From Sphingopyxis sp. HIX (GTDB lineage: Bacteria > Pseudomonadota > Alphaproteobacteria > Sphingomonadales > Sphingomonadaceae), in contig NZ_LNSB01000025.1 in assembly GCF_001468285.1 (NCBI RefSeq), positions 1-64,000 on the forward strand: DNA of 64,000 nt, given 5' to 3'. The notes under the pieces were generated by a model that saw nothing but the letters and a program-made list of their open reading frames with translations, searched no databases and was not told the origin of the DNA. Of the stretch, positions 23,170-34,323 are shown piece by piece; the stretch's first letter is position 1, and each line of letters starts with the position of its first letter. A program made the position numbers and the translations under genes.

Positions 23170-23206
23170 ATGTGATTCTCCAATTGACAATCACATCATG
23201 ATGTGA
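23170..23206 (+). promoter_or_regulatory. Operator cluster and -35 box before the HTH-ribB gene
   Basis: ATGTGATT (23170-23177) and AATCACAT (23189-23196) are perfect inverted copies 11 bases apart. Sharing the right copy, TCACATCATGATGTGA at 23191-23206 is a perfect 16-bp palindrome. A consensus TTGACA lies at 23184-23189 between them. The palindrome ends 12 bases before the ATG at 23219. Three TGTGA-type half sites in 37 bases on a promoter look like a binding region for a dimeric regulator; the HTH domain encoded by the next gene is the obvious candidate. Confidence 0.65.
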
Positions 23207-23218
23207 AAACTGCGCGGC

Positions 23219-24496
23219 ATGTCTACGCAACTCATCGAGCGCATCCGCGCCATCGTCGATGACGGCGCCATGTCCCGTTCGGGGCTCGCGCGCGCCGCCG
23301 GTCTCCACGCCAACAGCCTGCGCGACCTCGATTCGCCGGGCTGGAACCCCACGGCGGACACGCTGCGCAAGCTGGAGAACTGGCTCGCGCACGGCAGCGA
23401 CCTGTCGCCGATGGCGACCCCCGAGGAAATCATCGCCGAGGCGCGCAACGGCCGCATGTTCATCCTCGTCGACGACGAGGACCGCGAAAATGAGGGCGAC
23501 CTGATCATCCCCGCGCAGATGGCGACCCCCGACGCGATCAATTTCATGGCGACGCACGGCCGAGGGCTCGTCTGCCTGACGCTGACCCGCGAGCGCGTCG
23601 AGCAACTCGGGCTCGAGCTGATGACGCGCAACAACCGCTCGCGCCACGGCACCGCCTTCACCACCTCGATCGAGGCGCGCGAGGGCATCGACACCGGCAT
23701 TTCGGCGGCCGACCGCGCGCGCACCGTGTCGGTCGCGATCGACGCCTCGCAGGGCCGCGACGACATCGTCACCCCCGGCCATGTCTTTCCGCTGATCGCG
23801 GTCGACGGCGGCGTGCTGGTGCGCGCCGGGCATACCGAGGCCGCGGTCGACATCAGCCGCCTCGCGGGGCTCAACCCCTCGGGCGTGATCTGCGAGGTGA
23901 TGAACGACGACGGCACGATGGCGCGCCTCGACGACCTCATCCCCTTCGCGCGGCGCCATGGGATGAAGATCGGCACGATCGCCGACCTGATCGCCTATCG
24001 CAGCCGCACCGACCGGCTGGTCGAATGCGTCGCCGACGAACCCTTCGAATCGGACTATGGCGGCGACTGGCGGCTCAAATCCTATCGCAACAAGACCGAC
24101 GGCAGCATCAACCTGGTGCTGCAGAAGGGCACCGTCGACCCCGACGGCACGACGCTGGTGCGCATGCACCCCGTGTCGCTGTTCGACGACCTGATGGGGC
24201 GCCCAGGGCCGAAAAAGCGCCGCCTGCAGCGCTCGATGGACGCGATCGGCGAGGCCGGGTCGGGGGTCATCGTGCTGCTGATGCGCCCGCTGCCCGGATC
24301 GGCCGACGCCGACGCGGTGCCGCCGCCGACGGGGGGCATGGACCTTCGCACCTATGGCATCGGAGCACAGATCCTGGTCGACCTGGGCGTCCATGCGATG
24401 GAATTGCTGACCCCCTCGCACCATAATCTCGTCGGACTGGAAGGCTATGGCCTGTCGGTCGTCGGCGAACGCTCGATCCCCGGGGAGGCCGAATAA
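23219..24496 (+). CDS. ribB: HTH-fused 3,4-dihydroxy-2-butanone-4-phosphate synthase with degenerate GTP cyclohydrolase II domain
   Basis: The 425-residue protein has three parts. Residues about 1-62 look like an XRE-type helix-turn-helix ([35 protein letters not shown]). Residues about 66-265 are DHBP synthase, which makes the four-carbon unit of riboflavin; the acidic loop is [11 protein letters not shown] (84-94) and RAGHTEA (202-208) is intact. Residues about 275-425 match GTP cyclohydrolase II in outline, but the zinc site normally written VHSECLTGD...CDC is replaced by [14 protein letters not shown] (314-327), so this part should not hydrolyse GTP. The start at 23219 is supported by the HTH match; ATG at residue 65 would give RibB alone. 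The ribH start codon overlaps its stop. Confidence 0.92.
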
Positions 24497-24921
24497 TGGC
24501 GCATGTGCTGATCGTCGAAGCCCGCTTCTACAGCCATTTGAACGACATGCTGCTCGACGGCGTGCGCTCGGCGCTCGAAGCCGAGGGGCATAGCCACGAG
24601 ACGGTGACCGTCCCCGGCGCTCTGGAAGTACCCGCGGCGATTTCGCTGGCGGCCGACAGCGGACGCTACGACGCCTATGTCGCGCTCGGCGTCGTGATCC
24701 GCGGCGAAACCTATCATTTCGAGGTCGTCTCGAACGAGAGCGCGCGCGGCATCATGGCACTGACGCTCGACGGGCTCGCGATCGGCAACGGTATCCTCAC
24801 CGTCGAGAATGAAGAGCAAGCGCTTGCGCGCGCCGACAAGACGCGCAAGGATAAGGGCGGCGAAGCGGCCAAGGCCGCGCTCGCGATGCTGGCCCTGAAG
24901 GAGCAGTTCGGCATTGGCTGA
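24496..24921 (+). CDS. ribH: 6,7-dimethyl-8-ribityllumazine synthase
   Basis: The 141-residue enzyme condenses the RibB product with the pyrimidine intermediate to give lumazine. Family motifs are [24 protein letters not shown] and GNGILTVEN. Its ATG shares one base with the ribB stop (TAATG), so the two are translationally coupled. Confidence 0.95.
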
Positions 24922-31993: not shown

Positions 31994-32608
31994 TCACCCC
32001 CGCGCCTGCATCCGCGCGAGATAGCGCGCGAGGATGTCGATCTCGAGGTTCACCGGCCGCCCCTCGGCCGCCTCGTCGAGCGTCGTCATCGCCTGTGTGT
32101 GCGGGATGATGTTGAGCGTGAAATGCGCCTCGCCCGACGCGAGGTCGGCGACCTCGTTGACGGTCAGCGACACGCCGTCGACGGTGATCGAGCCCTTGGC
32201 CGCGATATGCGGCGCGAGCGCGGGCGGCGCCGCGACGGTGACCGCGATGCTGTCGCCGACCGGCGTGATCGACACGATGCGGCCGACCGCGTCGACATGG
32301 CCGGTGACGATATGCCCGCCGAGTTCGTCGCCGACCTTGAGCGCGCGCTCGAGGTTCAGCCGGCGCCCCGGCTCCCACATCCCCGGCGCGGTGCGCGCGA
32401 TCGTCTCGGCGCTGGCGTCGATCGCGAACCAGTCGCCGTCGGCGGCCTTGCCCTTTTCGACGACGGTCAGGCACGCGCCCGAACAGGCGATCGAGGCGCC
32501 GAGGTCGATGCTGTCGGTATCATAGGCGGTGGCGATGACGAGCCGCGCGTCGCCGCGATCCTCGCGCGCGCGCACGGTGCCGATGTCGGTGATGATGCCG
32601 GTGAACAT
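31994..32608 (-). CDS. ribE: Riboflavin synthase
   Basis: The 204-residue enzyme dismutates two lumazines to riboflavin. It starts MFTGIITDIGTV and shows the two internally repeated barrels, with IACSGACLTV in the first and GSITVDGVSLTVNEV in the second. It follows ribD by 7 bases. The ATG at 32608 gives the universally conserved N-terminus. Confidence 0.95.
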   Translation of the reverse strand: MFTGIITDIGTVRAREDRGDARLVIATAYDTDSIDLGASIACSGACLTVVEKGKAADGDWFAIDASAETIARTAPGMWEPGRRLNLERALKVGDELGGHIVTGHVDAVGRIVSITPVGDSIAVTVAAPPALAPHIAAKGSITVDGVSLTVNEVADLASGEAHFTLNIIPHTQAMTTLDEAAEGRPVNLEIDILARYLARMQARG

Positions 32609-32615
32609 GGGGCTC

Positions 32616-33590
32616 TTATCCTTCTCTGACGCGCTCGTAGACGTCGAGCCGGTCGCTGCCAAGCAGGCGGCTGTCGGCCAGCCGCCAACGCCCGTGCGCG
32701 TCGGCGAGATCGGCCAGCCCGATGTCGCCGAGCGCCGCCTTGCCCGCGCCGATCAGGATCGGCGCGCGATAGAGCAAAAGCCGGTCGACGCGGTCGGCGG
32801 TGAGGAAGGCCGACGCCGCGCCCGCGCCGCCCTCGACGAGCAAAGAATCGACGCCCGCAACCGATTCGGGCGACGCCACTGCAGTCCAGCCCGCCGGTGC
32901 TGCGCCGTGCGTCAGCAGCAGGCGCCGCGGCCTGCGGTCCTCGAGGCCGGGCAGGCGCACGTCGAGCGTCGGCGAATCGGCTTCATAAGTACCGCGCCCG
33001 ACCAATATCGCCTGGTGCATCGCGCGTTCGAGATGGCCGTGCGCGCGCGCGCGGGCGCCGGTGATCCAGCGGCTCGCGCCGTCGGCGCGCGCGATCCGGC
33101 CTTCGAGCGAGGTCGCGAGCTTGAGCGTCACGAACGGCCGCCCCTCGGCCTGCCGCGTCCACCACGGCGCCATCGCGGCGCGCGCCTCGGCGGGCATGAC
33201 GTTGAAGACGACCTCGATCCCGGCATCCTGCAGCCGGGCGATCCCCCGACCGTCGGTCCGCGAATCGGGATCCTGTGCGGCGATCATGACGCGCGCGACC
33301 CCCGCGGCGATCAACGAATCGCTGCACGCCGGCCCGCGCGCGCTGGCGTGCGCGCAGGGTTCGAGGCTGACATAGGCGGTCGCGCCGCGCGCCGCGTCGC
33401 CGGCGGCGGCGAGCGCCACCGCCTCGGCGTGCGGCCGCCCGCCCGCCTGCGTCCAACCGCGCCCGACGACTCGCCCGTCCTTAACGAAGATGCAGCCGAC
33501 ATTGGGGTTAGGCGCCGAGGCGGGGCGCCCGCGCCGCGACAGCGCGATCGCCGCCGCCATCCAGTCGGCATCGGCGCGGAGGCGCTGCAT
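32616..33590 (-). CDS. ribD: Bifunctional diaminohydroxyphosphoribosylaminopyrimidine deaminase / reductase
   Basis: The 324-residue enzyme carries out the second and third steps of riboflavin synthesis. The deaminase zinc site is H54-A-E56 with C79 (PCAH) and C89; the reductase domain occupies about residues 150-320 (TLKLATSLEGRIA, LVGRGTYEADSPTLDVRLPG, LLVEGGAGAASAFL). It precedes ribE and follows a small membrane-protein gene. No FMN riboswitch is visible upstream. Confidence 0.94.
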   Translation of the reverse strand: MQRLRADADWMAAAIALSRRGRPASAPNPNVGCIFVKDGRVVGRGWTQAGGRPHAEAVALAAAGDAARGATAYVSLEPCAHASARGPACSDSLIAAGVARVMIAAQDPDSRTDGRGIARLQDAGIEVVFNVMPAEARAAMAPWWTRQAEGRPFVTLKLATSLEGRIARADGASRWITGARARAHGHLERAMHQAILVGRGTYEADSPTLDVRLPGLEDRRPRRLLLTHGAAPAGWTAVASPESVAGVDSLLVEGGAGAASAFLTADRVDRLLLYRAPILIGAGKAALGDIGLADLADAHGRWRLADSRLLGSDRLDVYERVREG

Positions 33591-34214: not shown

Positions 34215-34243
34215 TTGCACAAATTTTTGTGCGCTGCAATATG
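34215..34243 (+). promoter_or_regulatory. Candidate promoter of the small RNA
   Basis: TTGCAC at 34215-34220 is followed 16-17 bases later by the A/T-rich hexamer CAATAT/AATATG at 34237-34243. The spacer contains the palindrome GCACAAATTTTTGTGC (34217-34232), a possible operator, and TGCAATTGCA-like half sites lie further upstream. Confidence 0.4.
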
Positions 34244-34246
34244 AGC

Positions 34247-34308
34247 ATGCCTTTTAGGCATCCTCTCCCAAAACTTTCACGGGCCACCTTCGGGTGGCCC
34301 TTTTTTTT
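34247..34308 (+). ncRNA. Probable small regulatory RNA, suhB/mmgR-like
   Basis: A hairpin ATGCC-TTTTA-GGCAT (34247-34261) is followed by a pyrimidine single-stranded stretch CCTCTCCC (34262-34269), a short linker and a terminator: GGGCCACC (34281-34288), TTCG, GGTGGCCC (34293-34300) and eight T. A hairpin, a C/U-rich anti-Shine-Dalgarno-like loop and a strong terminator are the pattern of alphaproteobacterial trans-acting RNAs of the suhB/alpha-r8 type, which occur in sphingomonads. It has its own promoter-like sequence and no open reading frame. The 5' end is estimated. Confidence 0.55.
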
Positions 34309-34323
34309 GCCCGAAACCGCCGA

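Follow-up and report, generated by a model that had tools for sequence, protein, structure and literature searches.

We believe that the ribB gene described here encodes a trigger enzyme, i.e., a DHBP synthase that is also the autogenous transcriptional repressor of the ribB-ribH operon, and we assign this reading a probability of roughly 0.78. The protein, referred to below as HTH-RibBX, carries a helix-turn-helix domain (HTH) in addition to the RibBX architecture. A conserved palindrome is found at its own promoter, and it occurs where the DNA-binding domain occurs. Computation gave the HTH and the RibBX architecture as well as the site and its co-occurrence with the HTH; judged from the sequence, control of the gene by its own product is probable. 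The window, i.e., the whole analysed stretch of 64,000 nucleotides from Sphingopyxis sp. HIX, contains the features listed in the table.

Features of the ribB-ribH locus (positions in the window)
Feature	Position	Strand	Remark
Upstream half-site of the operator region	23170..23177	+	ATGTGATT; read in the sequence
Presumed -35 element	23184..23189	+	TTGACA; read in the sequence, role presumed
Operator	23191..23206	+	perfect 16-bp palindrome TCACATCATGATGTGA; only site in the genome within 1 mismatch of TCACATNNNNATGTGA
Presumed -10 position	23207..23212	+	AAACTG, poor match, 17 nt past the -35 element; placed by spacing
HTH domain, residues 1-62	23219..23404	+	Cro/C1-like
DHBP synthase (RibB) domain, ~residues 66-265	23414..24013	+	
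X domain, residues 271-417	24029..24469	+	GCHII fold, zinc-Cys motif absent
ribH (lumazine synthase)	24496..24921	+	Pfam DMRL_synthase, E 4e-44

The open reading frame at 23219-24496 is genuine and consists of three parts: the HTH, the DHBP synthase and a degenerate domain of the GCHII fold. The first-pass annotation had read an HTH and an intact DHBP synthase here, and both are confirmed; the synthase domain keeps the conserved catalytic residues (Pfam and the alignment with relatives). It had also noted that the zinc cysteines are gone from the C-terminal GCHII-like domain. This is correct, and the catalytic residues are gone too: neither the zinc-Cys motif nor the RQEGRGIGL-type stretch is present, from which the X domain is predicted to lack GCHII activity. 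A separate RibA with intact motifs (CLTGDVLGSLKCDC) is encoded elsewhere in the same genome (G000:C1:118548-119036, 201 bits). The dead domain is not a peculiarity of this protein. It is common to the HTH-less alphaproteobacterial relatives and so is not the new part; PMC10012899, which cites Brutinel 2013 for RibBX, gives the combination of RibB with a degenerate GCHII domain as the published RibBX form. The nearest solved structure, PDB 6mnz, is titled RibBX of Acinetobacter baumannii; the same RibB and X domains occur there and in Shewanella and Aeromonas, and to these the present locus adds an HTH and an operator. The new parts are the HTH and its putative DNA site, the remaining two domains being known RibBX. 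Since the ribH ATG overlaps the ribB stop codon, the two genes are probably co-transcribed.

The first-pass annotation proposed to survey sphingomonad RibB proteins for the HTH; it is matched in 159 of the 199 genomes of the sphingomonad family, leaving 40 without it. The exact palindrome TCACATNNNNATGTGA occurs in 85 of the 199 genomes, i.e., in 85/159 with the HTH versus 0/40 without it, and the reversed pattern used as a control occurs in none of the 199. In the first 14 loci (the window and 13 named loci, some of which may be the same species as genomes under G handles) TCACATNNNNATGTGA was found upstream of the gene with 0-2 mismatches in every case. The operator of the window falls inside 23170-23206, the DNA that had been proposed for binding tests.

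A larger set of 111 HTH loci, non-random in that 61 were chosen for a genome without an exact site and 5 for a genome with one, has a best upstream site with 0, 1, 2 and 3 mismatches in 33, 56, 19 and 3 loci, respectively, so that 108/111 are within 2 mismatches. (L204 was dropped from this set as a duplicate of L013, the re-fetched genomes L083, L149 and L248 were left out, and the HTH genomes lacking an exact site, 74 in number, were inspected except for G030, i.e., 73 of them.) The same threshold is reached by 1.3% of dinucleotide shuffles, never by the reversed pattern upstream of the 111 loci, and by 1 of the 88 HTH-less windows obtained from the 97 HTH-less loci supplied. The consensus of the site over 56 loci is TCACATTnnAATGTGATA; its central CAC and GTG do not vary among the loci (111/111), and coordinated changes at the outer symmetric pairs in these loci do not exceed independence. 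Among the exact sites listed (at least 76), 66 precede the HTH match by 7-92 nt and 5 lie elsewhere; 5 further ones, for which the place of the HTH is not among the matches listed, are at the usual position. A CRP-type operator, with half-sites in the order TGTGA-N6-TCACA, was considered and rejected: the halves of the present site stand in the opposite order, and swapped halves give 0-1 mismatch in 0/111 loci and 2 mismatches in 5/111. Most loci contain one palindrome and an upstream half-site; one (L010) contains two complete palindromes 32 bp apart (2940 and ~2972).

The geometry of the promoter was counted in the 77 loci that share the common spacing. Of these, 50 have an exact ATGTGA half-site within 40 nt upstream; among the 66 that have ATGTGA with at most 1 mismatch, its start is 21-22 nt ahead of the operator in 50. 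TTG begins 6-8 nt before the operator in 56/77 loci, TA directly follows it (the -10 place) in 45/77, and the operator is separated from the start codon by 12-13 nt in 54/77. The simplest reading of this spacing is that the operator would be the 17-nt spacer of the promoter and that the transcript would start at or beside the ATG; the interval 23207-23219 suggests a leaderless ribB mRNA. A Shine-Dalgarno-like 4-mer precedes the start in only 4/77 related loci, and a consensus promoter scanner lists no plus-strand promoter at ribB of the window.

We presume the following mechanism. The RibB core is presumably a dimer; two HTH-RibBX copies joined by it would set their two N-terminal HTHs on the TCACATNNNNATGTGA palindrome, which would fill the -35 to -10 spacer of the ribB promoter, and the half-site about two helical turns upstream may aid the binding. 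Binding would turn off ribB-ribH, and therefore the enzyme level would determine how much DHBP synthase and lumazine synthase is made. A metabolite bound in the active site of RibB or by the X domain could tune the response, and plain concentration homeostasis would fit as well. Physical binding, repression over activation, the dimer geometry and any ligand are what we infer here. The earlier idea of the enzyme as a regulator is retained in part: the comparative evidence on the palindrome supports transcriptional regulation through the HTH well, while the dead GCHII domain, shared with HTH-less relatives, is not special to this protein.

It is unlikely, in our opinion, that HTH-RibBX binds the site and activates its promoter, or both activates and represses it. 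Activation fits the co-occurrence evidence equally; the half-site 21-22 nt before the operator, at or upstream of the presumed -35, is a possible place for an activator, and the weak -10 of the window would suit an activated promoter. However, conservation of the site is highest between the presumed -35 and -10, and a Cro/C1-type protein bound at this place would be expected to block RNA polymerase.

Less probable still is that the palindrome belongs to a separate regulator and the HTH of RibB serves some other purpose, e.g., oligomerisation. The HTH and the site are mostly co-inherited in one family, and DNA binding by the HTH is predicted, which leaves some room for such a reading. For a separate regulator, however, one would expect the site to persist where RibB has lost the HTH, and this is not what is found: the exact site is absent from all 40 HTH-less genomes, and in a tree built quickly from 115 RibB cores a site with at most 2 mismatches accompanies 44/46 rows with the HTH versus 0/69 without it. 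On this tree, no fewer than 7 changes of the HTH label are required, and the well-supported branches force 2. In the two independent contrasts that have good support (the best tree gives 7) the site tracks the HTH in 1.9/2 on average, or 1.5/2 at no more than 1 mismatch, and never in the opposite direction; the contrasts are too few for a statement of significance.

A general regulator would, moreover, have more than one genomic site within 1 mismatch, and the window's genome contains a single one, 23191-23206. Among the matches listed at up to 3 mismatches in the genome, 16 have 2 mismatches and none has 1. The 277 places found at this level versus 92 for the reversed control are by themselves no proof of a regulon, because the reversed pattern has other dinucleotides; in the 64-kb window the same threshold gives 5 matches versus 7.8 expected, none of them at ribD or ribE. 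Control of other rib genes was rejected as well, there being no second genomic site within 1 mismatch and none at ribD or ribE. There is essentially one target per genome, and weak extra targets may exist among the 16 places with 2 mismatches. The five exact sites out of place lie within the ribB coding sequence (G152), within another long ORF (G104), at an ORF end near a phage-terminase-like ORF (G101), 38 nt ahead of a lipoprotein-like ORF (G165), and ~1.1 kb beyond ribH, in the gap that separates an aldo/keto-reductase-like ORF from its neighbour (G103). G165, G104 and G101 have an exact site at ribB as well, and the ribB site has 2 mismatches in G103 and 1 in G152; we take the five, without proof, to be due to chance.

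The reality of the HTH itself deserves comment. The window copy alone falls short of the Pfam HTH models (only HTH_30 at 0.14), and the sequence-family matches come via relatives: HTH_26 and HTH_3 are each matched by 9/13 members and PHROG 8 by 13/13. A PDB sequence search with the window HTH gave no significant match, and in a check of the HTH models for a lambda-repressor-like fold DSSP calls no third helix and Z is below 8. It is highly improbable that residues 1-64 are outside the protein and translation begins near residue 65, a case the first-pass annotation had named against itself: 6mnz and the HTH-less RibBX homologues align only from about residue 65, and Shine-Dalgarno-like sequence before the upstream start is nearly absent (4/77 loci), but codons 1-62 are biased to silent changes against three relatives, i.e., are under purifying selection, 11 HTH residues are invariant across 111 loci, and the distance between the start codon and the operator is kept in 54/77 loci, as given above. 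One HTH-less ribB reading frame (G099:C1:268556-269653) contains one in-frame TGA.

As to the origin of the domain, a class-wide HTH search matched 31/385 genomes, 4 of which are family members with strong matches. Among the 27 remaining ones, the sequences were read for L169 and L170, which contain the best HTH matches outside the family (E 4.8e-11 and 1.2e-10). These are short stand-alone HTH relatives in other alphaproteobacterial families (L169:1351-1674, L170:1453-1671). They share the WNPTA-x-T signature with the window HTH and, unlike the window protein, are short and unfused to RibB; a Pfam search with them found no significant model. A phage source was considered and rejected: there was 1 weak hit among 50,697 phage records.

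The FMN riboswitch (RF00050) controls rib operons in many bacteria. None reaches the gathering score in the window and none was found in its genome, which agrees with the absence noted earlier at the rib loci of the window. More generally, it is missing from 198 of the 199 family genomes, with or without the HTH (the filters were strict and weak riboswitches may be missed), and was matched in 7/14 control genomes. Considering that HTH-less genomes lack it too, its absence leaves room for a protein regulator and is no proof of one; by the same token, the HTH fusion is not required for control. The single exception, G164, has the order FMN riboswitch, ribD, ribE, ribBA, ribH (L256, G164:C1:1157000-1163000). 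Its ribBA with an intact CLTGDALGSLRCDC is its only DHBP synthase, and HTH-RibBX is absent. The congeners G008 and G102 keep the HTH form and have exact sites; the riboswitch-led operon of G164 would appear to be foreign.

It is tempting to propose that HTH-RibBX is a protein counterpart of the FMN riboswitch, in which the X domain, once a GTP cyclohydrolase II and now retired, would sense a flavin or a pathway metabolite and switch the enzyme from catalysis to the repression of a single operon with a leaderless mRNA, and back, so that control would be on DNA alone. We offer this tentatively and would sooner doubt it than rely on it. The riboswitch is an RNA, absent from the window and the genome, and HTH-RibBX is a protein. 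According to PMC10012899, the X domain of RibBX regulates RibB in a way that is not understood. The present reading may give this domain a use, and it offers a candidate for vitamin B2 control in a large family nearly devoid of the FMN riboswitch, namely, a pathway enzyme reading its own promoter; the predicted site is precise.

BirA, NadR and PutA are bacterial trigger enzymes with a DNA-binding domain. As in these, a metabolic enzyme and a DNA-binding regulator form one chain; they belong to other pathways, and HTH-RibBX apparently has one target, its own operon. The RbkR of archaea combines an HTH with riboflavin kinase and is described in PMC8305020 as a bifunctional regulator and enzyme. 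The likeness is that of a flavin-pathway enzyme carrying its own HTH; the enzyme is a different one of the pathway, and RbkR is archaeal while the window protein is bacterial. No riboflavin kinase domain was found in the latter, for which Pfam gives only the DHBP synthase and GCHII domains. The HTH of RbkR is a winged one. In the open-licence literature searched, we recognised no paper describing an HTH fused to RibB.

The gene order differs between the two kinds of loci. A RibE C-terminal motif lies 130-234 nt before the codons of a 10-residue ribB motif in 51/60 HTH-less loci; in HTH loci it is found within 900 nt upstream in 21/55, at 348-622 nt (~200 nt of which encode the HTH), and is not found within this range in 34/55. 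Therefore, the fusion gene either follows ribE, the operator lying between the two, or stands apart from it as in the window. Here ribD and ribE are together at 31994-33590 on the opposite (minus) strand, 8 kb from ribB-ribH, with neither an operator nor an FMN riboswitch. About 650 nt from ribD, at 34242-34315 (+), there is a suhB / mmgR-type sRNA (RF00519, 57.4 bits, E 3.4e-9), the sole Rfam match in the window. In two genomes, a flavin-reductase-like ORF was noted by eye, divergent beside HTH-ribB (L143:4810-5331 and L144:2582-3112).
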